From Amycolatopsis alkalitolerans (GTDB lineage Bacteria > Actinomycetota > Actinomycetes > Mycobacteriales > Pseudonocardiaceae), in NCBI RefSeq assembly GCF_006152065.1, contig NZ_VDFW01000021.1, forward strand, positions 1 to 64,000: a DNA stretch of 64,000 nt. The letters run 5' to 3'. Under the pieces are notes generated by a model. That model had not been told where the DNA came from. It made no database searches and worked only from the letters and a program-made list of their open reading frames with translations. This document shows, piece by piece, positions 23,006 to 50,897 of the stretch (positions are counted from its first letter, which is position 1; each line of letters opens with the position of its first letter). Made by a program: the position numbers and the translations under genes.

Positions 23006-23087
23006 GTACTCACCCTAACGCGACCGGACCGGGTTGATCCCCTGTTCGTGGCTGGGCCGGCCGGGTGTACCTTGCTCGAGCAGTAAT

Positions 23088-23106
23088 GAAAATCGATATC
23101 ATTTTC
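23088..23106 (+). promoter_or_regulatory. Zur/Fur-like palindrome over the -10 region
   Basis: GAAAAT-N7-ATTTTC forms 6-bp arms, extended by T at the left (ATGAAAATCGATATCATTTTC). It stands out as AT-rich in very GC-rich DNA. The inner TATCAT (23097-23102) lies exactly six bases before the ATG at 23109, so a bound repressor would cover the -10 element. The composition resembles actinobacterial Zur sites (TGAAAATnATTTTCA-like). Which Fur-family member binds is inference. Confidence 0.55.
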
Positions 23107-23108
23107 GG

Positions 23109-24077
23109 ATGGAGCCAGCCGTGAAGGTCGCCTTCGTCGGCAAGGGCGGCAGCGGGAAGACCACGCTGACCTCCCTGTTCGCCGCTTACCTCGCCGCATC
23201 GGGGAGGCCGGTACTGGCCATCGACGCCGACATCAACCAGCATCTGGCCGCAGCGCTGGGCGCGAGCGAAGAAGAAGCCGCCGCGCTGCCGACGCTGGGC
23301 GAGCACCTGCTGCTCCTCAAGGACCACCTCCGCGGCGGCAACCCGCGGATCGCCAGTGCCGAAGCGATGATCAAGACCACCCCGCCGGGGCGAGGTTCCC
23401 GCCTGCTGCGGCCGTTCGCCGAGGACGCGGTGCTCGACCGGTGTTTCCGGATGGTCAACGGGGTGCGGCTCGGCGTCACCGGCCGGTTCACCGAGGGCGA
23501 CCTGGGCGTGGCCTGCTACCACTCGAAGGTCGGCGCGGCGGAGTTGCTGCTGAACCATTTCGCCGACGAGGCGGGCGAGTACGTGGTGATGGACATGACC
23601 GCGGGCGCCGACGCGTTCGCCTCGGGCCTGTTCACCCGCTTCGACGTGACCTTCCTGGTCTGCGAACCGACCTTGCGCAGTGTCGGCGTGTACCGCCAGT
23701 ACGCCGATTACGCACGGGACTTCGGCGTGCGGCTCGCGGTAGTGGGCAACAAGGTCACCGACGACGAGGACGCCGAGTTCCTGCGCGGCCAACTCGGTGA
23801 CGCGCTGCTGTGCTGGCTGACCGGATCGGGTCACGTCCGCGCGACCGAGCGTGGTCAGGTCCGGCCGATCGAGACGCTCGAGCCGGGCAACGTGGCGGCA
23901 CTGGAGAAGCTTGTGTCCACTGTGGACTCGGTGGAGCGGGACTGGGTGCGCTACCACCGGCAGGCCGTGCAGCTCCACCTGCGCAACGCGCGCGCGTGGG
24001 GTAACGAGCGGACCGGCCGGGACCTCGCCGAGCAGGTGGACCCGGAGTTCGTACCCGGCACGCATGCCCGGGCCTGA
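23109..24077 (+). CDS. CooC/ArsA-like P-loop ATPase (MinD/ParA superfamily)
   Basis: A 322-residue cytoplasmic deviant-Walker ATPase. KGGSGKTT (12-19) carries the P-loop with the extra lysine of the MinD/NifH/CooC group, followed by the switch segment VLAIDADINQHL. VVMDMTAGADAF holds the later aspartate, and VVGNKVTDDEDAEFL is a guanine/adenine-specificity-like NK loop. CooC-type proteins load metals into target enzymes. A Zur/Fur-like palindrome lies over the promoter, which suggests a metal link. The next gene starts 17 bases after the stop. I do not know the target protein. Confidence 0.75.
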   Translation: MEPAVKVAFVGKGGSGKTTLTSLFAAYLAASGRPVLAIDADINQHLAAALGASEEEAAALPTLGEHLLLLKDHLRGGNPRIASAEAMIKTTPPGRGSRLLRPFAEDAVLDRCFRMVNGVRLGVTGRFTEGDLGVACYHSKVGAAELLLNHFADEAGEYVVMDMTAGADAFASGLFTRFDVTFLVCEPTLRSVGVYRQYADYARDFGVRLAVVGNKVTDDEDAEFLRGQLGDALLCWLTGSGHVRATERGQVRPIETLEPGNVAALEKLVSTVDSVERDWVRYHRQAVQLHLRNARAWGNERTGRDLAEQVDPEFVPGTHARA

Positions 24078-24094: not shown

Positions 24095-24484
24095 ATGTCC
24101 TTGGACGTACCCGCCGCGCTGCTGGAGCGCGCCTCGTCCGGCGAGGTGACCGACGCCGAGTTCGTCGCGTGCGTGCGTGACTCGCTGCCGTACGCGTGGC
24201 AGGTGATCAGCGAGGTGGCCGCGGGCCTCGCGGACGGGGCCGACTTCGCCGACCACGCGACCCCGCCGCCGAGCGAGACCGAGCGCGGCCAGTTGTTGCG
24301 GGCCCTGGCCTCGGACGCGATCCGCGGCGGTCTGGAGCGGCATTTCGGGATGAAGCTGGCGTTCCAGAACTGCCACCGCGTCGCGGCGTTCCGCCCGGCC
24401 GCCGTGGACAGTGCCGCCTATCGGGACTTCATCTCCCCCACCGGCCAGCTCCTCAACCAGACCCCCGAGCTCCGCGACTGCTAA
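24095..24484 (+). CDS. Small conserved protein paired with the CooC-like ATPase
   Basis: A 129-residue soluble protein of unknown function. Notable are a conserved-looking core (QLLRALASDAIRGGLERHFG, then KLAFQNCHRVAAF) and C-terminal cysteine in TPELRDC. From memory it resembles a conserved actinobacterial family annotated after Streptomyces SCO5389; I cannot check this here. Cys in QNCHR, His and the terminal Cys could bind a metal. It has an AGAAGGAG ribosome site. Its position just behind a CooC-like ATPase suggests it is the ATPase partner or client. The function remains unassigned. Confidence 0.7.
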   Translation: MSLDVPAALLERASSGEVTDAEFVACVRDSLPYAWQVISEVAAGLADGADFADHATPPPSETERGQLLRALASDAIRGGLERHFGMKLAFQNCHRVAAFRPAAVDSAAYRDFISPTGQLLNQTPELRDC

Positions 24485-24497
24485 CCCGCGGAGGTGG

Positions 24498-25433
24498 TCA
24501 GGGGCGGTAGCGGTAGGGGAGTTCCGTTGGTTGGCCTGTTGGGCCGAACTGCGGTGGGTCCTCGTCCGGGTAGTTGTCGAACCAGCCGCGTTCGGCGGCT
24601 GGGATGCCGCGGGGCGGGGTGTCGGTTTCGGGCTCGACGGGGTCGGGGTCCTGCGCAGGGTCGGGGTCCCGCGCAGAGTCGGAGTCGCGCACGGGATCGG
24701 GGTGGCGCACGGGGTCGGGGTCAGCCTGTGGCGCAGAGTCGGCCTGGTGTGCGGGGTCGGACTGGGGCGCGGGGGCGGGGGGCTCGAAGCCTAGCGGCGC
24801 CACCGGTGGCTTGGTTTCCTCCTCGGCGGGCGGCTTCGCCTCCGGGGGCTCTGGCAGCGGCGGCACGTCCTCGGGTGCTTTCGCCGGTGTCGTACGCCAG
24901 ACCGGTGCCGGGGGGATGTTCATCGCCGCCGCGCGCGGGCGGTCCAGGGCGGGCTCGGCCGGCGGCTGCTGGGTGCTGCGCGGCGCGATCGGGTCGAGCA
25001 CCGAGACGAGCACCCGCGTGTGCTCCGGGTCCTCGACCTTCCGGCCGCTGCGCTCGCGATAGACCATGTCCCCCTCGGCGTCGATCTCGACCAGGTAGCC
25101 CGCCTCGGCGAGCTGCTCCTCGTCCAGGTCGACCAGGTTCTCGTACCGCGAAGGCACCACGCGGTACACCGGCCACGACAGGCGCTGATGTGCCTGGTGG
25201 AACTGCGCGAGCAGCGCGGCCATCTGCTGTTGCCACGGCAGGGACATGCCCTCGGCGAGCGAGCGTGGCAGCACCACGTAGTTCTCGTCCACCCCCGGCC
25301 AGTTCGGGGCGAGGTAATCCGCCAGCGGGGTGCTCGAAGCCGGGCGCGCGGACGACCGCGGCGGCGGGGGCGTGCCGAACAGCTCCCGCGCATCGCCCGA
25401 GGAACCGCGACGTTTGCCGAATTTCTTGGCCAC
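24498..25433 (-). CDS. Proline-rich hypothetical protein, last gene of the T4SS-like operon
   Basis: A 311-residue protein I do not recognise. The N terminus is basic ([20 protein letters not shown]). A folded-looking region (about 35-150) includes [43 protein letters not shown] and a [29 protein letters not shown] segment. The last 150 residues are disordered-looking, with repeated DPVR/DPA units around 235-285. No signal peptide or membrane helix is seen, so it is probably cytoplasmic. It starts 15 bases after the NlpC/P60 gene stop in the same operon. It could be a substrate, chaperone or regulatory subunit of the system, which is speculation. Confidence 0.72.
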
Positions 25434-25448
25434 AGGACTCTCCGTTGA

Positions 25449-26447
25449 TCACACACCCGGCCGCACGGCCTGCGGCACGAGCTCGTTCTCGTCGAACGAC
25501 ACCGACCGCACGTGCACGGGCACGCCGGTCTGCTGGGCTTCGACTATCTTCCCATTGCCCAGGTACATCGCCACATGGTGAATAGTGTTCGGGTTCGACG
25601 GGTCGTAGGCCCAGAACAGCAGATCCCCAGGCTGGGCGTCGCGAACCGGCAGCATCGCGCCGTCGTGGTACTGATCCTGCGACACCCGGTCGAGCGTGAT
25701 GCCGGCGGCCTCGTACGCCCGCAGCATCAACCCCGAGCAGTCGTACGCGTTCGGCCCGGTGGCGCCCCACACGTACGGCTTTCCCTGCTCCCCCAAGGCG
25801 AACGCGATCGCCCTGGCCGCCGCCTGGTTCGCCGGCAACGCCAGCCCGACGCTCTGCCCGCACCCGACCATGTCGGCTACCTGACCGACGTGCTGCACCA
25901 GGTACGCGGCCATCGGCTCCCACCGGTGGTACCGGTCCGGGAACGCCGAGCGCTCGACGTCCTGCGCCGAGGTGCCCGGCCGCTGCTGGTCCCAGCCCGG
26001 CACGGCCAGCAGCACGTCGTAGAACTTGTTGATCTCGTACCCGACGTCCTGCAACTGGGCCACGCTGCCCCAGCCCATCGACGGCCGCATCTGGAAGACG
26101 CCCAGCGAGTCCCGGTCGCCGTAGCCGAGGTTGCGCAGGCCCGACTCCGTCATACCCGCCTGGATCGCGATCTGCCAGGCCCGCGGCGAAAGCCCGCGCT
26201 GCTTGCCGACGGCGATGATCTGCTGCACGATCTGCTGCTGCTGACCGTCGAGGTTGCTCGCCTGCCCCTGCGCGGTCTGCGCCTGCCCCGGGCTCGTCGG
26301 CCCGATCGCCGCGTCACAGCCGGTGTTCTGCACCGCCTGCGCCTGCGCGGCCTGCTGGTCGGTCACCACCTTGACCACCACGCCCGCGGTCAGCACCGCC
26401 CCGAACAGGGCGGCGACCACCACCCCGATCAGCAACCCGAGCCGCAT
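25449..26447 (-). CDS. Membrane-anchored SLT-like plus NlpC/P60 cell-wall hydrolase
   Basis: A 332-residue wall-degrading protein. Residues 4-27 form a transmembrane anchor. Residues about 65-195 resemble an actinobacterial transglycosylase-like domain, with probable catalytic Glu101 in GMTESGLRNLGYG followed by DSLGVFQMRPS. Residues about 205-330 are an NlpC/P60 endopeptidase with catalytic Cys237 (AYDCSGLM) and His291 (HVAMYLG). Bifunctional proteins of this kind open peptidoglycan for type IV secretion or conjugation channels. Its ATG is in the operon two bases after the upstream TcpC/VirB8-like stop. Confidence 0.86.
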   Translation of the reverse strand: MRLGLLIGVVVAALFGAVLTAGVVVKVVTDQQAAQAQAVQNTGCDAAIGPTSPGQAQTAQGQASNLDGQQQQIVQQIIAVGKQRGLSPRAWQIAIQAGMTESGLRNLGYGDRDSLGVFQMRPSMGWGSVAQLQDVGYEINKFYDVLLAVPGWDQQRPGTSAQDVERSAFPDRYHRWEPMAAYLVQHVGQVADMVGCGQSVGLALPANQAAARAIAFALGEQGKPYVWGATGPNAYDCSGLMLRAYEAAGITLDRVSQDQYHDGAMLPVRDAQPGDLLFWAYDPSNPNTIHHVAMYLGNGKIVEAQQTGVPVHVRSVSFDENELVPQAVRPGV

Positions 26448-26449
26448 GG

Positions 26450-27043
26450 TCAGCTCGCCTGGTCGTACTTGGCCACGCGCCAGCCGGCGGGGGTCTCCGT
26501 GACGGTGATGCTCAGCTTGGGGCCGTCCGTGGGTACGACGGCGACGACGGAACTGGTGTAGGACTGCGCGGCGACCGGTTCACCGGTCAGCTTCGTGGCC
26601 GGGATGTTCGTCGGGTCCACACTGGACATCTGCGGCAGGAACTCGTCGGTGGTGTAGGGGCGCAGGCCCGCCAGCCATTGCGCGTTCGTGATGCCGGGCG
26701 GGTGGTTGACCCACGCCTGCGCCCACAGCTTCGCGACGCCCAGCGCCTGCGGGTTCGGCGCGGCCGGGGTCGGTTGCAGGAGCGGCGCGGTCAGGCGCGT
26801 CGACATCGGCACGGGCGAGCTTCCGGGCTGCCGCGCCGCCGAAGACGAGGTGTCCGGGATCGTCGCCGGGGTGATCTTGTTCTGCTGCCGCGGCCCCAGC
26901 AACTGCGGCACGAGAAGCCCGATCGCGATGACGAGGATCGCGACGCCGATCGCCGTGCCGGCGAGATGGCGCGGCGAGCGCAACGGGAATCCCCACAGGC
27001 GGCGGTAGACCGCGGCACGCCCGCGGTTGGTCCTGATCGGCAT
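26450..27043 (-). CDS. Single-pass VirB8/TcpC-like protein of the T4SS-like operon
   Basis: A 197-residue protein with a cytoplasmic basic N terminus, one transmembrane helix (about 28-48: GTAIGVAILVIAIGLLVPQLL), a Pro/Ser/Thr linker and a compact extracytoplasmic domain (about 100-197). That domain contains KLWAQAWVNHPPGITNAQWLAGLRPYTTDEFLPQM and ends with a beta-rich stretch (LSITVTETPAGWRVAKYD). This layout is that of NTF2-like VirB8/TcpC channel subunits of Gram-positive conjugation systems. The assignment rests on topology and gene order rather than a diagnostic motif. Confidence 0.68.
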   Translation of the reverse strand: MPIRTNRGRAAVYRRLWGFPLRSPRHLAGTAIGVAILVIAIGLLVPQLLGPRQQNKITPATIPDTSSSAARQPGSSPVPMSTRLTAPLLQPTPAAPNPQALGVAKLWAQAWVNHPPGITNAQWLAGLRPYTTDEFLPQMSSVDPTNIPATKLTGEPVAAQSYTSSVVAVVPTDGPKLSITVTETPAGWRVAKYDQAS

Positions 27044-27046
27044 GGC

Positions 27047-29110
27047 TCACCTGACCACTTCGTCGGTGTCGCGCACTTCGATCCCCCGTGAGGGCCGGTA
27101 CAGCACGAAAACCGGCTTGCCGCCTACCAACTCGCGCTCGGCCCGGCGTGGTTGCGGCGCGCTCGTCCGGTGGGGCGCGGGCGGTGTGGACCGCAGCCGC
27201 GACGGCACGACGACCGAGTCGGGCAGATCGTCCCGGTTGAACACGGGCGAAGTGTCCACGCGGCGGCTCTGCGGCTGCGGCGGGACCCAGCCCGCGTCCA
27301 CCCGACGGGTTGAGCCCGGCGGCGCGGAGTACACGTACGCGTCGTCCCCAGGGGCACGAGCGGAAGGCGCGTACGCCGGGTACACCCCCGGACCGCCACC
27401 GGCCGGCAGCGCGCGCCGATTCCCGTTGCCCGGCAAGGATCCCCCGCCCGGCCACGGGGCGCCGGACCACGCGGCGGCAGGCCGCGCAGCCATCGAACCC
27501 GCGCCGTCGAGTCGCTGCGCGTTCGCGAAGATCGTCGCCTCGGGGCGGTCGCGGCGACCGCCGGCCGTCGCACCGATCGGGCCACGGGTCTCGAGATCGC
27601 TGTCGTCGGAGTCGCGGACGTTCTGCCAGAACTCGTCCTGCGGCGTCGGCCCCTGCTTCCGGCGGAACCGGGAGAAGATCCCACCGCTGGGCGCCGGGAT
27701 CGACGAGCCGACCATGCCGACGGACATCTCGACCATCTGCCACAACCGCCGCACCGGGCGGCCGACGAGGAACAGCAGTACCGTCACCAGACCGGCCATC
27801 ACCATCTGCGTGAGCATCGACAGCGAATTGCCGGCGGCGAAGATCGCCTGCAGCAGCAGGGCGTGCACCCCGGCGAGCACGGCGAGCACGATCAGGTTGA
27901 ACGCGACCCCGCCCAGTACCTTGCCCACCCGGCGGAGGATGTCGTGATGCACCAGCGCGACCAGGCCGATGAGCGGCGCGGTCAGCGCGAACAGCCGGAT
28001 CAGGACCTGCGCCAGCAGCACGGAAGCCTTGGCCAGCAACTGGAACAGCGCGTACACGAGACTCTGCAGCAGCGCCAGGAAACCTGCACCCGTTCGGCTG
28101 CCGCCTTCGCCGGTGAAGTACGGCGTGGCCGGGCCGAGCTGGCCGGCGATGTTCTTGTACGAAGCCTGTTTCGCGTCGATGACGGACTGGTTGGCGTCGT
28201 CACCGTTGCGGATCTGATCCCACGTGAACGCCTGCGCGTCGAGCAGCGGCCGGCCGAACTGCTGCGCCTGCGCGGCGTCGGACGCGCCGAACTCGCCGCG
28301 CAGCCAGTTGTCGTAGACGACCTGGGTGTGCAGTTCGGTCGGCAGGATCTCGCGGACCACCCGGTTGCCCGAATCGTCCACGAACCCGGCCTGGATGTTC
28401 GTGGTGGTCTGGACGATCGCCTTGTCTATCGGTTCGAAATAGCGCAGCATCGCGAGCGAGGACGCGGCGAGCCATACCGCGCCGAGCCCGTAGAGCGCGC
28501 GTTTCGACACCGCCGACAGGTCGCCGCGCCAGATGTTGCGGAACATCATGATCGCGAGCACGAGCGCCGCGAGACCGAACAGCTGGGCGTAGATGTTGTT
28601 GTAGACCTTCTCCGCGCCGCTCTTCACCGCGCCGTAGATCGGGTTGAGCAGGCCGCCTTCCATCACCGTGTAGTGCAGCGAGTTCGTGGCACCGACGATG
28701 TTCTTGCCGATGTTGAACAGCTCGTTGCCCGCCCACGTGTCGATGGTCGAGTTGGGGCTCGTGATGCCCGACAGCGGGCCGCAGTCGGTCTGGTAGACGT
28801 ACCAGACCATCCCGGCGTAGCCGTAGTCGAGGTACGCGCTGCCGTTCTCGCCGTGGGTGGCCGGCGGGTCGATCGCGCCGACCATGCCCGAGCCCGGCCG
28901 CTCCGGCGTCGGCGCCTGGCCGCAGGCCGCCGCCGACGCGGACGGCGCCGTCGCCACGGCCTGCAGACCGAGCAGCACCGCGACCGCGAACATGGTGGCC
29001 CAGCGGCCCGGACGCCGGCCCTTGAACCCGCCACGGCGCACGAATCCCTTGACCGCGTGCCAGCCCCAGGCGAAACCCAGCACGGCCGCGAGCGTGAGCA
29101 GGGTCGTCAT
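27047..29110 (-). CDS. Polytopic VirB6/TrbL-like membrane protein
   Basis: A 687-residue membrane protein. The N terminus has a helix (1-23) and a second hydrophobic stretch ending in an AxA-like site (TAPSASAAACG). A large extracytoplasmic region follows. Further helices are YAQLFGLAALVLAIMMF, YGLGAVWLAASSLAML and a cluster of about four between residues 345 and 455. The last 220 residues are hydrophilic and Pro/Arg-rich, probably cytoplasmic. The layout fits VirB6/TrbL/TcpH channel subunits. The stop overlaps the next gene region closely; its ATG overlaps the VirB4-like stop by 4 bp. Confidence 0.75.
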   Translation of the reverse strand: MTTLLTLAAVLGFAWGWHAVKGFVRRGGFKGRRPGRWATMFAVAVLLGLQAVATAPSASAAACGQAPTPERPGSGMVGAIDPPATHGENGSAYLDYGYAGMVWYVYQTDCGPLSGITSPNSTIDTWAGNELFNIGKNIVGATNSLHYTVMEGGLLNPIYGAVKSGAEKVYNNIYAQLFGLAALVLAIMMFRNIWRGDLSAVSKRALYGLGAVWLAASSLAMLRYFEPIDKAIVQTTTNIQAGFVDDSGNRVVREILPTELHTQVVYDNWLRGEFGASDAAQAQQFGRPLLDAQAFTWDQIRNGDDANQSVIDAKQASYKNIAGQLGPATPYFTGEGGSRTGAGFLALLQSLVYALFQLLAKASVLLAQVLIRLFALTAPLIGLVALVHHDILRRVGKVLGGVAFNLIVLAVLAGVHALLLQAIFAAGNSLSMLTQMVMAGLVTVLLFLVGRPVRRLWQMVEMSVGMVGSSIPAPSGGIFSRFRRKQGPTPQDEFWQNVRDSDDSDLETRGPIGATAGGRRDRPEATIFANAQRLDGAGSMAARPAAAWSGAPWPGGGSLPGNGNRRALPAGGGPGVYPAYAPSARAPGDDAYVYSAPPGSTRRVDAGWVPPQPQSRRVDTSPVFNRDDLPDSVVVPSRLRSTPPAPHRTSAPQPRRAERELVGGKPVFVLYRPSRGIEVRDTDEVVR

Positions 29111-32100
29111 GCGGCGTCCCGGCCGTGGCCGCCCCGCTTACCCGCGGTCGCGTGTTCCCCCTCCGGCTCGGTGCCGTTCCCGTTGCCGCCGTGGACCTCC
29201 TCGGCGAGCAACTGCTCCTCGGTCAGTCCGACCTCGCGCTCCGCCGCCAGCTCCAGGTCCTGCTCCAGTTCGTCGTCCGGCGGCGGGACGGGCACGTAGG
29301 TGGCCTCCTCGGGCTCGGCGTCGTGGTTCGCGGGCACGGTCTCCTGGGGCTGCGAGCCGGGGGTGGTGTCCATCGCGGCGCGCAGATGCTCCAGATGCGG
29401 ACCGGAGAAGTCGACGCGGATGCGCTCCACACCGCCGGCGCCGTCGCCGAAGATGAACTGCCGTGGCTCGCGGTCGCGCTCGACGTCGCGGTGCGCGCCG
29501 GGGCGGCGGCCCAGTGCGGCGACGACCTGCTCGTAGCCGACCCCGACCGGAACCTTCAGCAGCCGCAGCGCATCCGCCTGCGCTTCGTCGTCGTCCAGGC
29601 GGCCGACGAACACCGAGTCCAGCAGCGCGACGAAACCCTGGATCCGCAGAAAGTCCGCCGGGATCTGCGAGGACAGCAGCACCCGGACGTTCCACTTGCG
29701 CGAGTCACGGGCGAAGCGGTTCATCAGCACGCGCCCGGTCGGCACCTCGGACAGGAAGAACGCCTCGTCGATCCAGACGCCCTTGCGCTGGTCCTTCGGC
29801 TTCTCGTAAACCGACCGCTGGGTCAGCCAGGCCGCGAGGTTCAGCATCTCCACGCCGAGCGCCTCGGCGTCGGTCCAGTGCTCGCGGCTGACGCCGTCCT
29901 TCGGCAGGGTCAGCCCCGCCATGGTGAGCACCGTCAGGCGGTCGTCCCGGGTCTCGGAGTACGGGTCGGCGTCGTTTTCCGGGATCAGCAGGGACATTCG
30001 CTCGCGCATCTCGTCGAGGAAGTCCGCCACGACGACCGCGTGCTCGTGATGCTCGCTGGAGTCCCGGCGCAGCGCGTCGATGACCTGGCCAGGGTCGGCG
30101 TCGTAACGGCCGCCGACCGCGCGGACCGCGCGCAGCAGCACGATCCGGCTCTGCGGCATGCGCGCGACCTCGTACGGCAGGATGCCGCTCAGCACGTCGA
30201 GCACGAGCCGCCGCCGGGTGGCCCCGGCCAGCGCCCGCTCGCGACGCCACGCTCGCTCCGGGTTCTCCTCGTCGAGGAAGTGCTCGAGCAGCGGCTCGGC
30301 GACCACGCGATACGGGTTGAGGATCCCGGGCTGGGCGTTGAGCAGGTTGATCGGCCGCGCGTACGGTTTGATCTCCGGCAGCTCGCACAGCCTGGACAGC
30401 GGGCCGGACGGGTCGAGCAGCGTCCAGTACGCACCCGCGCGCAGCGTCTTGTAGACCATGCCCCCGCCGAGGAACGAGTTGTGCGTTGGGATGCACGTTT
30501 CCCCCGCGAGATACATGTGGTCGGCGTTGTCCACCTGGACACACCGCACCGGCACGGACTCCACCGGCACCACATCCGTGATATAGCGATAACGGTTCGT
30601 GTCCCGAACCCTCGGATTGAGACGCGCCAGTTTCTGGGAGAGCCGAAACACCTTGTCCGAGGTGGTGAACGACAAGATGTACGCAATCGAGGTGTGTGGA
30701 TGCCGCCCCTTCACCCGCTTCCTGCTCAACCGGACCTGGTACCCGAGACTCAACACCAGTTCGCGGACGTCGCGAGCCAGCTGCTCGTTGGTGACCGAAA
30801 ACTGGATACCACCCGTCGGCTTGCAGTACCCATCCGTGTCGAGCAGACCTGCCAGTAGGGCACGGCGTTGCCGCTCGGAGGCTCGCAAGTAGCGGGCCGG
30901 GATGTGCTTGTTCCCCAGCAGGCCCATCTGCCGCAAACGCGTCTGTACGGTGCCCGGCAAGCTGTAGTCCCGTTGCGACGGACGATAACGGCACTCTTGG
31001 CCGCCTGCCTCAATCTCCTCGATGATCTCACAATCGAACACCGTGATGGCCGCTCGGCACGATGTTCCGTCTCCGAGCCAGGCGCCAAGCAGATAGGGAT
31101 CGACGGGTAGCTCCTTGTCCGGCAACTCGAACGCCGATGCGACCGGAACCGCATGGTTGCTCTGCGGACCAGACCTGAGGGACTCGGCGATCTCGGCCGT
31201 CGTGTGCACCGTAGGACGTTGATTGGCTACCAACGAAATTTCTCCACGACGCCAGTGGCCACGAACGAAACGGGAATGGTAGAACTCGCCATCAGCACGC
31301 GCGGCAGGGGTCCGCTGGTAGTTCCATCGGGTCGTCGGCTGGTCACAACCACACGCACAGCTTCCCGGAGGCGGCAGCGGGCTGGGGACAGCAGCGGCGG
31401 CCAGCCGGACTCGTTCATCAAGGCGGTTCTGCGCCTTCCAGTCTTTCCTCGTCCGTGTCAACCACTGATGCTCTGCATCCGCGCGAATGACCGAACCGTC
31501 GGAAAACACCACGTCGAAACACGGGCGGTCGAACATGACCTCGGTTGCCGCGATCACCCGTGTCGGCTTGCCGTCCATACCCAGTAGCTGATCACCAACC
31601 TTGACCTCACCCATCGTGGTCCAGCCGGTCGCCGTGGGCAGCGGCGTGTCCAGGGCGAGCGCCTTGCCACCGCCGAGGCCCGCGACCATGGCCGTCAGGC
31701 CCGAACCGTCGCGGATCTCCTGCGCCATCCACGGGTCCCAGGCGACGGGGCGCCGCGTCGCGGTGACCGTCTCGCCGAGCAGGATCCCCCGCCGGTCACC
31801 GACCTCCGCGGTCGCCGTCGGCACCGCCGCGGCCGCCCAGACGACCGACCCGCGGCGCATGTACGCCGAGGCCGCCAGCGGCTCGCCCGGGATGAACTCA
31901 CGCGCCATCGCGTACTGCGCCTCGGGATGCTCGATCGCGATCTTCGGCTTGTACAGGTCCAGCAGCTGCTGGGCCAGGCGCAGCGCATCCCGCTCGGTCG
32001 GGCCGGAGACCGCCAGGCGCCACCATGACCGCACCCGGGTGGCGAGCGCGGTGAAGCCCGAGGTCATCTCGTCGTCGATCTCGAGCACGCGCGACGCCTG

Positions 32101-33204
32101 CCGCGACAGCGACTGCGGCGGCTCGAGTTCGTGCTCGTCGGTGTAGTGCTTGACCTGCGAGCGGACCTTGTTCATCTGCCGCTGCAGCTCCCCGGCGACC
32201 TCCTCCGGGCGGCGCACGTAGATCCGCGCCGACCATTCGACGGAGGCCGGCAGCCGGTCGGCGTGCTGCACCCACGGGTCGTCGACCTCGGGGATCTGCA
32301 GGCCGTGCATCTGCCCGACGGTCAGCACCGCGACATGCCGGCGGACCCCGGCGTTCGACCCGGTGCGCCCGCGCACGGTCAGCGTCGGCGCGTAGGGCTC
32401 GGCGTGGAAGTCCGCGGCGTCGGTGAAGCTCGCCAGGTCCTCCGGCTCCCACTCGTCGCCCGGCACGGCGGGCAGGCTGCGGGGCGCGGGCAGGCCCAGT
32501 GAACAGGACCGGTGCATCAGCCAGACCATCTCCTCGGCGTGCACCGGGCGGCCTTCCAGCCCGGAGGAGCCGATGACCTGGTCGAGGTGCTCGACCTCGG
32601 AGTCCAGCGCGGTCAGCTCCGCGTCCACGGCCTCCGGCAGGATCTTCCGCAGCAGCGGCGCGGCGCTCTCCACCGCGCGGTCCACCATCCGGCGCGTCTG
32701 TACCTGGACGCCGACGTAGACCTCCTTCTCGGCCATCGAGCGGCCCATGAGCTGCTGCTGCTCGCCGATCAGGTAATCGTCGAAGGACAGCGCGCCCGGG
32801 GTGTCCCGCGGGCGGCCGACGGCGTTGTGCACGTGGGCCTCGGCCCACATCCGGATCGGGTACGGCCGGGTGGTCACCCGCAGGTGCAGCCAGCGGCCCT
32901 GCAGCTCGGCGTACTGGCCCGCGATCGCGGCGATGAGGTCCCGGCGCTGCGAGTCCGACCGGAACGACCAGCGCTGCGGCGCCAGCCGGTACCACGCGTA
33001 GACCTCGTGCCCGGTGCGCAGCAGATGACCGTCGATGCTGCGCGCGGCGATGGACGGGGTGTAGGAGGGGATGGCCTGCTCGCCGGGCAACCGCCGGCCC
33101 TGCCTGGGTTTCTTGGCATTCGGCGACACGCCGCGGCCGGGCTGCGGCTGCCACTGCGTGGCGCCGCCCGCGTCGTGCTCCCGGTCCTTACGGCGACCGA
33201 ACAA
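29107..33204 (-). CDS. VirB4-like secretion ATPase interrupted by an intein
   Basis: The 1365-residue precursor should yield a mature protein of about 970 residues after splicing. The N-terminal third (up to about 450) is a VirB4/TraC-like domain. The Walker A GLGGGK (509-514) is cut by the intein at Lys514, and the motif resumes with Ser910. Walker B is GVWIDEAFF (1142-1150, Asp1146/Glu1147), followed by LLSSQIPADFL. The C-terminal 120 residues are acidic and disordered-looking. VirB4 ATPases energise type IV secretion. ATP binding should require intein removal, because the P-loop is split. It is the third gene of the seven-gene operon. Confidence 0.88.
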   Translation of the reverse strand: MFGRRKDREHDAGGATQWQPQPGRGVSPNAKKPRQGRRLPGEQAIPSYTPSIAARSIDGHLLRTGHEVYAWYRLAPQRWSFRSDSQRRDLIAAIAGQYAELQGRWLHLRVTTRPYPIRMWAEAHVHNAVGRPRDTPGALSFDDYLIGEQQQLMGRSMAEKEVYVGVQVQTRRMVDRAVESAAPLLRKILPEAVDAELTALDSEVEHLDQVIGSSGLEGRPVHAEEMVWLMHRSCSLGLPAPRSLPAVPGDEWEPEDLASFTDAADFHAEPYAPTLTVRGRTGSNAGVRRHVAVLTVGQMHGLQIPEVDDPWVQHADRLPASVEWSARIYVRRPEEVAGELQRQMNKVRSQVKHYTDEHELEPPQSLSRQASRVLEIDDEMTSGFTALATRVRSWWRLAVSGPTERDALRLAQQLLDLYKPKIAIEHPEAQYAMAREFIPGEPLAASAYMRRGSVVWAAAAVPTATAEVGDRRGILLGETVTATRRPVAWDPWMAQEIRDGSGLTAMVAGLGGGKALALDTPLPTATGWTTMGEVKVGDQLLGMDGKPTRVIAATEVMFDRPCFDVVFSDGSVIRADAEHQWLTRTRKDWKAQNRLDERVRLAAAAVPSPLPPPGSCACGCDQPTTRWNYQRTPAARADGEFYHSRFVRGHWRRGEISLVANQRPTVHTTAEIAESLRSGPQSNHAVPVASAFELPDKELPVDPYLLGAWLGDGTSCRAAITVFDCEIIEEIEAGGQECRYRPSQRDYSLPGTVQTRLRQMGLLGNKHIPARYLRASERQRRALLAGLLDTDGYCKPTGGIQFSVTNEQLARDVRELVLSLGYQVRLSRKRVKGRHPHTSIAYILSFTTSDKVFRLSQKLARLNPRVRDTNRYRYITDVVPVESVPVRCVQVDNADHMYLAGETCIPTHNSFLGGGMVYKTLRAGAYWTLLDPSGPLSRLCELPEIKPYARPINLLNAQPGILNPYRVVAEPLLEHFLDEENPERAWRRERALAGATRRRLVLDVLSGILPYEVARMPQSRIVLLRAVRAVGGRYDADPGQVIDALRRDSSEHHEHAVVVADFLDEMRERMSLLIPENDADPYSETRDDRLTVLTMAGLTLPKDGVSREHWTDAEALGVEMLNLAAWLTQRSVYEKPKDQRKGVWIDEAFFLSEVPTGRVLMNRFARDSRKWNVRVLLSSQIPADFLRIQGFVALLDSVFVGRLDDDEAQADALRLLKVPVGVGYEQVVAALGRRPGAHRDVERDREPRQFIFGDGAGGVERIRVDFSGPHLEHLRAAMDTTPGSQPQETVPANHDAEPEEATYVPVPPPDDELEQDLELAAEREVGLTEEQLLAEEVHGGNGNGTEPEGEHATAGKRGGHGRDAA
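30478..31662 (-). mobile_element. Class 3-type intein with LAGLIDADG endonuclease in the VirB4-like P-loop
   Basis: In-frame insert of 395 residues (515-909 of the precursor). It starts with ALALDTPLPT (Ala instead of Cys/Ser) and ends TCIPTHN before Ser910. The class 3 triad is visible: Trp581 in DAEHQWLT, Cys888 in PVRCVQVDN and Thr907 in PTHN. The endonuclease blocks are LLGAWLGDGT (Asp712) and LAGLLDTDG (784-792, Asp789/Asp791). All splicing and endonuclease residues I can check are intact. The segment 30.6-31.5 kb is visibly less GC-rich than its flanks, which supports later acquisition. Confidence 0.92.
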
Positions 33205-33207
33205 CAG

Positions 33208-33750
33208 CTACCTCCTCGCCGGAGCCGGGCTACGGCGTGGTCTCGACCTGTCAGTGTTGTCTCCGGCCACCTTCCGGGGGCCCACCCCCACCGCGTTGTC
33301 TCCGGCCCCCTTCCGGGGGCCCACCCCCACCGCGTTGTCTCCGGCCCCCTTCCGGGGGCCCACCCCCGCCGCGCGCTTGTGCTTGGGCAACGGGCGCTGC
33401 GGGCGGACCCGGAGCTTGGTGGCGGTCACCGCGCCGCCCTCACCCCGTGGCCGCTCACGCGGGGCGTGCAGCTCGCGCAGCCACATCGTGAACACCGCAC
33501 CGAGCGGGCGCTCGTGACTGATCTTTCTCGTGATCAGCCTGGTGATCAAGATGGTGGCGACGAAGGCCCACGCGGTCGAAAAGAATCCGAACCCGACGCC
33601 GAGCTGGCGCTCGACGGTCAGCACGACCAGGAAGATCGCGATGCCCAAGCCCCAGGCGACGTAGCGGGCGCGCCAGGGGAACGTGGCCTTCGGCGGGCCG
33701 AGCCAGACCGCGTCGACCCGGTAGACCTCGTCATCGGTTCGAATCCGCAC
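33208..33750 (-). CDS. PrgI-like two-helix membrane protein with a repeat tail
   Basis: A 180-residue protein. After a short N-terminal strand region (DEVYRVDAVWLGPPK) come two transmembrane helices (about 30-47 and 53-71), a basic stretch, and then a low-complexity C-terminal tail. The tail contains three 13-residue repeats of the VGVGPRKGAGDNA type, coded by the 39-bp tandem repeat. Two adjacent helices just upstream of a VirB4 ATPase are the usual layout of PrgI/VirB3-type proteins. It starts on GTG and ends three bases before the ATPase ATG. The tail is unlikely to be part of the conserved fold. Confidence 0.72.
   Translation of the reverse strand: MRIRTDDEVYRVDAVWLGPPKATFPWRARYVAWGLGIAIFLVVLTVERQLGVGFGFFSTAWAFVATILITRLITRKISHERPLGAVFTMWLRELHAPRERPRGEGGAVTATKLRVRPQRPLPKHKRAAGVGPRKGAGDNAVGVGPRKGAGDNAVGVGPRKVAGDNTDRSRPRRSPAPARR
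33256..33372. repeat. 39-bp tandem repeat, three copies, inside the PrgI-like gene
   Basis: Three 39-bp units (33256-33294, 33295-33333, 33334-33372) differ at only a few positions. Each contains TTCCGGGGGCCCACCCCC, a G/C-rich stretch with strong self-complementarity. Because 39 is a multiple of three the reading frame is kept, giving 13-residue repeats near the C terminus of the PrgI-like protein. Confidence 0.9.
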
Positions 33751-33760
33751 GAGGGCCCCG

Positions 33761-34027
33761 TCAACCGGTGAACAGGCCGGCGATCCATTCGCCGACGTTC
33801 ACGCCCAGGCCGCTGACCGCGAGACCGATGATCGCCAGTGCGATCACGACACCGGCGAGCCGGCGCATGACACCGGCGTTGTCGCCCTTGCCGCCGCCCA
33901 GCCAGAGCAGCAGCAACGCGACGGCCAGCAGTACCAGCGGGATGATGTTGTCGAGCATCCACTGCTGGACGCCTCGTGTCTTGATCTCGCCCTGTGCGAG
34001 GTGCTGCACAAGCGTCATCATGGTCAT
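33761..34027 (-). CDS. Small two-helix membrane protein, first gene of the T4SS-like operon
   Basis: An 88-residue protein with a 25-residue amphipathic start (LVQHLAQGEIKTRGVQQWMLDN), helix 1 (IIPLVLLAVALLLLWLGGG), a short basic loop (GKGDNAGVMRR) and helix 2 (LAGVVIALAIIGLAVSGLG). Size and two-helix topology resemble VirB2/TrbC-type pilins or small channel subunits, but no signal-peptidase site is clear. GGGAG lies about nine bases before the ATG; a second ATG at codon 4 is possible. Ten bases separate its stop from the PrgI-like start. Confidence 0.7.
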   Translation of the reverse strand: MTMMTLVQHLAQGEIKTRGVQQWMLDNIIPLVLLAVALLLLWLGGGKGDNAGVMRRLAGVVIALAIIGLAVSGLGVNVGEWIAGLFTG

Positions 34028-34115: not shown

Positions 34116-34144
34116 ATCATGGCGTGACTAGCTGTAACGGTCAA
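34116..34144 (-). promoter_or_regulatory. Candidate promoter of the T4SS-like operon
   Basis: On the minus strand TTGACC (34144-34139) is followed by 17 bases and CATGAT (34121-34116). The predicted start near 34109 would give a leader of about 80 bases before the ATG at 34027. The -10 match is partial. Confidence 0.35.
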
Positions 34145-49868: not shown

Positions 49869-50897
49869 ATGAGCCAACCCCCACCAGGCCAGTGGCCGCC
49901 GCCCTGGGCTCCCTACCCGCCGCCGCGACCGCCGAAGAAGACACCCGCCGGGGCGATCGTCGCGATTTCGCTCGCCGTGGCGGTCGTGCTGACGGTGACC
50001 CTGATCATCACGCTGAACTCGGGCTCGTCCGGTTCGAGCAGCGCCGCGTCCTACGACGTGACGGACTCGCCGACGCCCACCACGACCACCACGAGCAGCA
50101 GCGCGTCGAGCACGTCCACCACGACGCGCACGACGTCCTCGTCGAGCGAAACCACGACGGCCACGGCAAGCGGACCGCACAAGATCATCGCGCTCGCCGG
50201 CCACCCGCTGATGGCCGATCCGAACGCGGGACTGTCCAACGCCGGATGCACCGTGCCGGGCTGGCCGAGCAGTCCGGCCGCTTCCCAGGCCTTCTTCACC
50301 GCCGCCGCGCAATGCCTCAACGCCCGGTGGGGCCAGCTGCTCGAAGCGATGGACCTGCCGTTCCACCCGCCGCAGCTGGAGTTCCCGGCGGGCCCGAGCT
50401 TCACCACCGCCTGCGGCACGATCAACGTCGGGCTGTCCACCGCCGCCTACTACTGCAAGGACCACCTGTACGTCCCGTACCGGGGGCTGCAGACCGACCA
50501 GTACGGCGACAAGCCCGGTGTCTATCTCGCGCTGTTCGCGCACGAGTACGGCCATCACGTGCAGGACCTGGTCGGCCTGATGGACGCCGTGTGGCAGGTG
50601 ATCTACGCCGACGGTCAGCAGAGCCAGGGCGGGCTGGAGATGTCACGCCGCAAGGAACTGCAGGCGCAGTGCTTCTCGGGCATGTTCATGGGCGCGACGG
50701 CCAACCGCGGCGGGACGATCACGCAGAACGTGTTCGACGTGGCGTGGAACGACCAGCAGACCCGCGGGGACGACACCTCCGGCAGCGACGACCACGGCAC
50801 CAACGCCCACTACGCCGAGTGGTGGCGCAAGGGCGCGGAGAGCGACCGGCTCGCCCAGTGCAACACCTTCGCCGCCCCCTCCTCCGACGTCAGCTAG
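49869..50897 (+). CDS. Membrane-anchored neutral zinc metallopeptidase (YpfJ-like, paralogue 1)
   Basis: A 342-residue protein. A Pro-rich cytoplasmic tail is followed by one transmembrane helix (about 27-49), a long Ser/Thr linker (about 50-100), and an extracytoplasmic peptidase domain. The zinc motif is HEYGHH, followed by RRKELQAQCFSGMFMGA, where the Glu is the probable third ligand. The domain is related to YpfJ/DUF2342-like zincins. Conserved cysteines (TACGTINVG, AYYCKDH) suggest disulphides outside the cell. A second copy of the same architecture is encoded at 60597-61568. Confidence 0.88.
   Translation: MSQPPPGQWPPPWAPYPPPRPPKKTPAGAIVAISLAVAVVLTVTLIITLNSGSSGSSSAASYDVTDSPTPTTTTTSSSASSTSTTTRTTSSSSETTTATASGPHKIIALAGHPLMADPNAGLSNAGCTVPGWPSSPAASQAFFTAAAQCLNARWGQLLEAMDLPFHPPQLEFPAGPSFTTACGTINVGLSTAAYYCKDHLYVPYRGLQTDQYGDKPGVYLALFAHEYGHHVQDLVGLMDAVWQVIYADGQQSQGGLEMSRRKELQAQCFSGMFMGATANRGGTITQNVFDVAWNDQQTRGDDTSGSDDHGTNAHYAEWWRKGAESDRLAQCNTFAAPSSDVS

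Follow-up and report, generated by a model that had tools for sequence, protein, structure and literature searches.

A resident type IV secretion-type operon in Amycolatopsis alkalitolerans and the channel-less mobile elements that may use it

What would a type IV secretion system (T4SS) be for when its locus encodes neither a relaxase nor a coupling protein? The question is raised by an operon of the soil actinobacterium Amycolatopsis alkalitolerans (family Pseudonocardiaceae, hereafter the family), which lies at 24498-34027 of the stretch of DNA analyzed here (GCF_006152065.1, NZ_VDFW01000021.1, positions 1-64,000; the window). We propose, at a rough probability of 0.42, that it encodes a resident, host-owned channel into which mobilizable elements may plug a coupling protein of their own, and on which those elements would depend.

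The operon and its place in the family

The operon consists of seven minus-strand open reading frames (ORFs), with transcription running from 34027 to 24498:

33761..34027, minus strand: two-helix membrane protein, 88 aa, operon gene 1 (ORF, hydropathy, 20/20 loci)
33208..33750, minus strand: PrgI/VirB3-like protein, 180 aa, two helices (ORF, hydropathy, family loci)
29107..33204, minus strand: VirB4-type ATPase, its exteins split by an intein (PF12846, 4ag5, 200/200 genomes)
27047..29110, minus strand: VirB6-like polytopic membrane protein, six hydrophobic helices (20/20 loci)
26450..27043, minus strand: VirB8-like protein, one helix and an extracytoplasmic domain (position, topology, profile homology to plasmid genes)
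25449..26447, minus strand: membrane-anchored wall hydrolase (VirB1-like), muramidase-like and NlpC/P60 domains
24498..25433, minus strand: seventh protein, without membrane helices; conserved core (about 115 aa) and proline-rich tail

A sequence-only reading had described these as tightly spaced genes for the membrane core of a Gram-positive T4SS. The genes lie where it had placed them, and their spacing never exceeds 15 bp (in transcription order 10 bp, 3 bp, a 4-bp overlap of VirB4 and VirB6, 3, 2 and 15 bp). The assignment to a T4SS core is firm for two of the proteins on sequence grounds. VirB4 matches PF12846 (E 5e-16), and the best PDB match of its alignment profile is the solved VirB4 4ag5 (E 2e-8). 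The hydrolase matches PF00877 (E 4e-23), its muramidase-like residues 66-181 match 8b2e, and its PDB matches include the Tn916-like hydrolases 4hpe and 9ubf. The VirB6-like protein matches NCBIfam CD3337/EF1877 at E 8e-8, but its score of 31.6 bits is below the curated cut-off of 120. The remaining three labels are weaker. Neither the two-helix protein nor the VirB8-like protein has a library match over cut-off, and the PrgI/VirB3-like protein has none in Pfam or the other libraries; the PrgI/VirB3-like and VirB8-like proteins also lack a PDB sequence match, and a TpcC family match to the VirB8-like protein appeared in one of 24 members, at E 0.12. These labels follow from position, hydropathy and homology, by profiles that we built, to T4SS genes in the same position on plasmids; for the PrgI-like protein the identity to such genes on three plasmids is 38-40%.

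Two components of a Gram-positive conjugative T4SS (mating-pair formation), a VirB4 ATPase and a VirB1-like wall hydrolase, are thus encoded here. A coupling protein and relaxase encoded together with the channel are not found in the operon or its scanned flanking genes. Judged from its sequence, the operon is a real Gram-positive type IV secretion core whose locus has neither relaxase nor coupling protein. It is predicted to provide an inner channel, a motor and a wall hydrolase, and the substrate receptor is absent from the operon.

We also examined how widely this core is conserved, with sample sizes that differ by question: 200 family genomes for VirB4, 60 for coupling protein and relaxase, and 20 for synteny. 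A search with the C-terminal VirB4 extein found a match in 200/200 genomes and all 46 genera (46/46), single in 194 and two to four in the other six; AAA_10 likewise matched in 60/60. A separate scan of named records, considering the best 80 of 226, returned Amycolatopsis, Prauserella, Saccharomonospora, Lentzea, Thermocrispum, Qaidamihabitans, Actinophytocola and one record labelled Nocardia sp., the nearest VirB4 among these 80 being that of Amycolatopsis pithecellobii (94%). The synteny sample comprised one 20-kb locus from each of 20 other family genomes; one locus is clipped by a contig end. The seven-gene order is complete in all 20 (20/20), with the RNB gene downstream in 18/20 and the zinc-ribbon gene upstream in 15/20. 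The flanks had been described as housekeeping genes with no integrase beside the operon, and this is what we found, the flanking genes being mostly the same across family loci; in A. alkalitolerans they include those for an RNB exonuclease, a zinc-ribbon protein, BacA, a lysyl-tRNA synthetase-type protein, NAD synthase and a phosphotyrosine phosphatase. No integrase or tRNA lies near the operon in the window, and the operon shows no signs of decay.

VirB4 and the two small membrane proteins are under stronger purifying selection than the neighbouring housekeeping genes. In the closest of three pairs, the ratio of nonsynonymous to synonymous substitution (dN/dS) is 0.059 for the small two-helix protein, 0.073 for the PrgI-like protein, 0.085 and 0.112 for VirB4 and 0.123 for VirB6, against 0.201 for RNB, 0.224 for the zinc-ribbon protein, 0.277 for NlpC, 0.299 for the seventh protein and 0.370 for the VirB8-like protein. 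The ratios of VirB4, the PrgI-like protein and the small protein (range 0.03-0.20 for the last) fall below that of RNB in 3/3 pairs; those of the VirB8-like and seventh proteins do not. The VirB4 motor retains its Walker A and Walker B residues and ranks among the best-conserved parts of the operon. Because VirB4 is present in every genome sampled, the gene order is kept in every locus and dN/dS is low, the earlier suggestion of a fixed chromosomal T4SS-type host apparatus is supported. Neither confinement of the operon to integrative elements nor profiles pointing to another system were seen.

Relatives occur beyond the family. Class-wide, VirB4 matched at E <=1e-10 in 48/394 genomes: 3 of our own family, 40 of a family labelled f19 (26-30% identity), two of f3, and a single genome from each of f21, f22 and f36. 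The two f3 loci have common genes on both flanks, three compared f19 pairs have most of the locus in common plus some neighbours, and two f22 genomes of one genus have in common a syntenic stretch with a VirB4 that belongs to another lineage. Other actinobacterial families (f3, f19, f22) may therefore have equivalent resident cores. Among plasmids, 86 of 72,556 records gave VirB4 matches, all below 60% identity. Three plasmid modules (Streptomyces pSM17C, a plasmid of Streptomyces sp. 891-h, and p1 of Pseudonocardia sp. DSM 110487) encode a VirB4 about 40% identical to that of the operon and have in common with it the order small protein, PrgI-like, VirB4, VirB6-like, VirB8-like, NlpC/P60. They differ in being extrachromosomal and in that the seventh protein was not found there. 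Unlike the operon, pSM17C has a type IV coupling protein (T4CP) gene directly upstream of its module. The 891-h plasmid has an FtsK/SpoIIIE-type gene near the six genes, with no relaxase or VirD4-type gene annotated within 23 kb; on p1, whose gene table is incomplete, no T4CP or FtsK is annotated within 31 kb.

Mobile elements that lack a channel

The sequence-only reading had reported no relaxase or coupling protein and called for a search of the whole genome. This absence is true of the operon with its flanking genes, but not of the genome. Both proteins are encoded unlinked to the operon, on the contig that we call C33, whereas the window lies on C14. C33 carries the one strong T4CP and the one TrwC relaxase gene of the genome. 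There is also a weak PF02534 match on contig C10, around which a search with the C33 protein found no T4CP-like ORF. No PF03432 relaxase was found in the genome, and its sole VirB4-type ATPase is the resident one. The two C33 genes belong to an integrated element:

C33:26406-50747: integrated element of 24,342 bp at a tRNA-Arg gene, with 42-bp direct repeats

Its span is set by the 42-bp tRNA end, a copy of which recurs at 50706. A tyrosine integrase beside tRNA-Arg is followed by the genes for the T4CP and the MobF relaxase; the element also has a cytosine methylase-like gene. Searched with profiles for all seven operon proteins, it yields no channel homologue (best E 0.84). With an integrase, attachment (att) repeats, a relaxase and no channel, it has the makeup of an integrative mobilizable element (IME). 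The same channel profiles find the channel genes in plasmid and distant loci used as positive controls. Several of these loci had entered the widened profiles; narrower profiles built from the family only also recovered them.

Such elements recur. Across 60 family genomes, PF02534 matched in 24, PF12696 in 35 (many of them weakly), TrwC in 25 and PF03432 in 5. Counting each TrwC gene that has a T4CP no more than 15 kb away gives 27 loci, in 18 of the 60. For this count, split rows of one gene were taken as one; PF12696 added only three loci (G048:C116, G027:C1 and G030:C2), its other rows being omitted as the same genes as PF02534 or as weak (<34 bits); and a TrwC row under cut-off (G004:C46), AAA_10 rows under cut-off and resident AAA_10 rows were left out. 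A non-resident VirB4 lies within 60 kb of one of the 27 loci (G030). In 14 of the 18 element-bearing genomes no AAA_10 match over cut-off exists besides the resident one, where for four of the 18 (G002, G004, G042 and G050) the lone strong match was assumed to be resident.

Of 20 stretches examined, 14 have the arrangement T4CP, 250-aa gene, TrwC, eight of these with an integrase like that of the C33 element, and none of the 14 has a channel homologue. The remaining six comprise one with TrwC alone, two that differ in type and have an NlpC gene (L146, L147) and three without these genes. Repeats of the att type (38-47 bp, bounding 16.8 to 35.7 kb) were found for five of six elements tried. All five bounded elements encode T4CP and TrwC, four have an integrase matching that of the C33 element, and none contains a channel homologue (best E 0.81). 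A 24-kb contig (G395:C2, L158-L159) holds two sets of T4CP, 250-aa gene and TrwC; the T4SS locus of that genome is unlinked.

What the channel might be used for

In the reading we favor, the operon would encode a resident, host-owned Gram-positive T4SS channel, vertically inherited in the Pseudonocardiaceae, now outside any mobile element and presumably assembled in the host envelope. Integrative mobilizable elements would supply the integrase, coupling protein and MobF relaxase, and no channel. The element's coupling protein may dock on the resident VirB4/VirB6 complex, and the element would then export its own DNA strand through the resident channel, used in trans. That the resident channel half and the receptor/relaxase half of the elements meet is, we infer, the simplest joint explanation. 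Since 36 of the 60 family genomes have no PF02534 coupling-protein match, the primary host role should need no coupling protein and the host would gain something else; it may use the channel for a receptor-independent task of its own. In a stronger form, which we hold a little less probable, the fixed core would be a domesticated, "public" mating channel of the Pseudonocardiaceae and would act as helper to a guild of mobilizable elements that shed their own. The sequence-only reading had favored protein export or DNA uptake over conjugation. Our results do not establish that preference: an unlinked T4CP and MobF relaxase on an element without a detectable channel, of a kind recurring in the family, keep DNA export in play.

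Several observations weigh against the use of a resident channel by such elements. Class-wide, relatives of the element T4CP occur at E 1e-20 in 111/394 genomes, in 26/48 with a resident-type VirB4 and 85/346 of the others. The two thus co-occur above chance (p 4e-5), which speaks for the reading. However, this co-occurrence is not independent evidence, because 40 of the 48 VirB4-positive genomes belong to f19, and the 85 carry T4CP relatives where no resident-type VirB4 was found. Within the family VirB4 is fixed throughout and so leaves no variation to correlate. In a genome of another family, contig G234:C31 (L156) carries a close relative of the element T4CP (55%) and TrwC with an NlpC/P60 gene adjacent, and the genome has no AAA_10 match; this channel-less element is of a further kind and provides one counterexample from outside the family. 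In genome G343 an element-type T4CP occurs alongside just one VirB4, which is of a different lineage. BLAST does not match the coupling protein of pSM17C, a plasmid with a resident-type channel, to the T4CPs of the elements. The profiles could also have missed a channel that has diverged too far.

The strongest alternative, though we consider it unlikely, is secretion independent of a coupling protein, in which the core would export host proteins, recruited once Sec has exported them or by way of an adaptor such as the seventh protein, and the elements are stranded or routed otherwise. An operon without T4CP would suit it, as would the 36 genomes without PF02534 and a seventh conserved protein specific to the locus. 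Protein-exporting T4SSs without VirD4 are known (section 20 of PMC12857230), and T4SSs without a relaxase have been proposed to be mainly protein exporters (section 11 of PMC3158045). However, no secreted substrate was recognised, and the conserved neighbours seen are housekeeping genes. Exported alarmone synthetases were dropped from consideration, as their T4SS connection in the available text of PMC12691689 concerns Streptomyces albireticuli.

It is improbable that transport has been lost and that the apparatus serves as a surface or cell-contact structure for adhesion, hyphal contact or wall remodelling. The wall hydrolase and the family-wide fixation would fit such a role, but the motor keeps its Walker A and B residues and ranks among the best-conserved parts of the operon, and library scans recognised no adhesin in the operon. 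Somewhat more doubtful still is a machine for DNA uptake, comparable in principle to the ComB system of Helicobacter pylori, which lacks VirD4 (section 20 of PMC12857230); VirB4 is the sole ATPase of the operon, but no competence gene was found in the operon or scanned flanks, to which the search was limited. Although homologous modules reside on plasmids, an integrated conjugative element (ICE) or its remnant is very improbable and was rejected on the grounds of family-wide fixation (200/200 genomes, 20/20 ordered loci), the conserved place, the lack of a nearby integrase or tRNA in the window and the absence of decay.

Known systems offer partial parallels to the resident channel that we propose. 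T4SSs of the Patescibacteria are likewise lineage-wide, chromosomal, of Gram-positive type and mostly without relaxase, as described in the accessible text of PMC12102498, but there VirB2-like pilins are reported, as is a T4CP homologue close to VirB4, and neither was seen in the operon locus. Bordetella Ptl, Brucella VirB, H. pylori ComB and Bartonella Trw combine a channel and VirB4 with no coupling protein, and systems of this kind export proteins or take up DNA (section 20 of PMC12857230); they differ in their Gram-negative envelopes and outer-membrane parts and are presumably distant in sequence. The unlinked elements resemble known IMEs, as these are presented in parts of PMC5704250 and PMC11389934, in that they lack a channel but possess an integrase, att repeats and a relaxase. 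They differ in carrying their own T4CP and a MobF relaxase; the 2017 review knew of no canonical IME encoding MobF. Helpers in these portions of the IME literature are mobile elements, whereas we propose a host locus. A 2011 survey of actinobacterial ICEs, with profiles including PF02534, PF12846 and PF08751, listed 17 putative T4SS-type ICEs, and the available text of that survey (PMC3218068) makes no mention of a fixed orphan core.

If our reading is true, the helper would be the host chromosome itself, not another mobile element, and this would help answer the puzzle of actinobacterial genomes with many relaxase elements and few T4SSs (section 8 of PMC3158045). A host channel in all sampled family genomes, together with channel-less relaxase/T4CP elements, makes that puzzle testable by a single gene deletion. 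The reading would also matter for gene exchange among genera that produce antibiotics, Amycolatopsis included. Chromosomal mating occurs in Amycolatopsis mediterranei, a subject on which our literature search yielded nothing. If the reading is false, the operon would still be a strongly conserved secretion apparatus of the family, of which we found no description in the open-access literature.

The intein, the seventh protein and neighbouring genes

The VirB4 ORF of 1365 aa owes part of its length to an intein of 395 aa:

30478..31662, minus strand: intein, 395 aa, class-3-type with a LAGLIDADG homing-endonuclease domain; it sits directly behind the lysine of Walker A (GGGK, followed by S)

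Its motifs are Ala1 (no nucleophile), HQWLT, VRC and PTHN followed by S, the class-3 positions being occupied by Trp, Cys and Thr. It therefore has the features by which class 3 is defined in the accessible text of PMC5050341, namely no nucleophile at position 1, a WCT triplet in blocks B, F and G and a terminal HN. The DnaB inteins of that class described there share the first two features and insertion after Walker A GK, whereas the host protein of the present intein is VirB4. The splicing half matches the solved DnaB inteins 6rix, 6riy and 6bs8 (E 2e-38 to 3e-36). Related inteins occupy the same site of DnaB (GK, then S) in other family genomes, one such ORF being confirmed as DnaB, and 718 phage records encode relatives, with helicases, terminases and exonucleases as hosts among the best listed. 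At the VirB4 site, six further family genomes have an intein (7/200 with our own), as does one of the 80 named loci; none of ten other genomes of the genus does. The G+C content is 0.627 in the intein and 0.716-0.733 in the exteins. By its sequence, the intein looks like a recent invader of VirB4. Since the intein interrupts the P-loop, the VirB4 of this strain would need it spliced out in order to function. We found no account of an intein in VirB4 in the open-access literature at the level of titles and abstract openings.

The seventh protein is kept in all 20 family loci. Its profile found no match in 15 non-family or plasmid T4SS loci, and matched in five genomes outside the family among 394 searched, including one (G273) at E 0.005. 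Four stretches around such matches (L188, L190-L192) contain no channel, T4CP or TrwC genes. In L188 an integrase-like ORF lies 6.6 kb from the match, and an f19-type T4SS locus starts about 16 kb away on the same contig. The core, a motif around YLVLPRSLLQSMP, recurs in these four stretches in unannotated proteins of other actinobacterial families, and in L192 the part preceding it resembles, by eye, a helix-turn-helix.

Three further features adjoin the operon:

34116..34144, minus strand: promoter-like site TTGACC-N17-CATGAT, read from the sequence, 88 bp ahead of the first gene
24095-24484, plus strand: 129-aa ORF matching the Pfam family "NucS shadow ORF" (PF20704, E 8e-64)
23034-24077, plus strand: ParA/CbiA-type ATPase gene, directly downstream of the operon on the opposite strand

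The ParA-like gene was rejected as an operon partner, its profile matching in just 5/20 loci, and the minus-strand ORF at 23010-24065, antisense to it, was treated as a shadow ORF. The 129-aa ORF was found in 2/20 family loci. The putative promoter is absent from 16 of 24 upstream stretches, and one of the same form stands at a similar place in the other eight, all from near genera.

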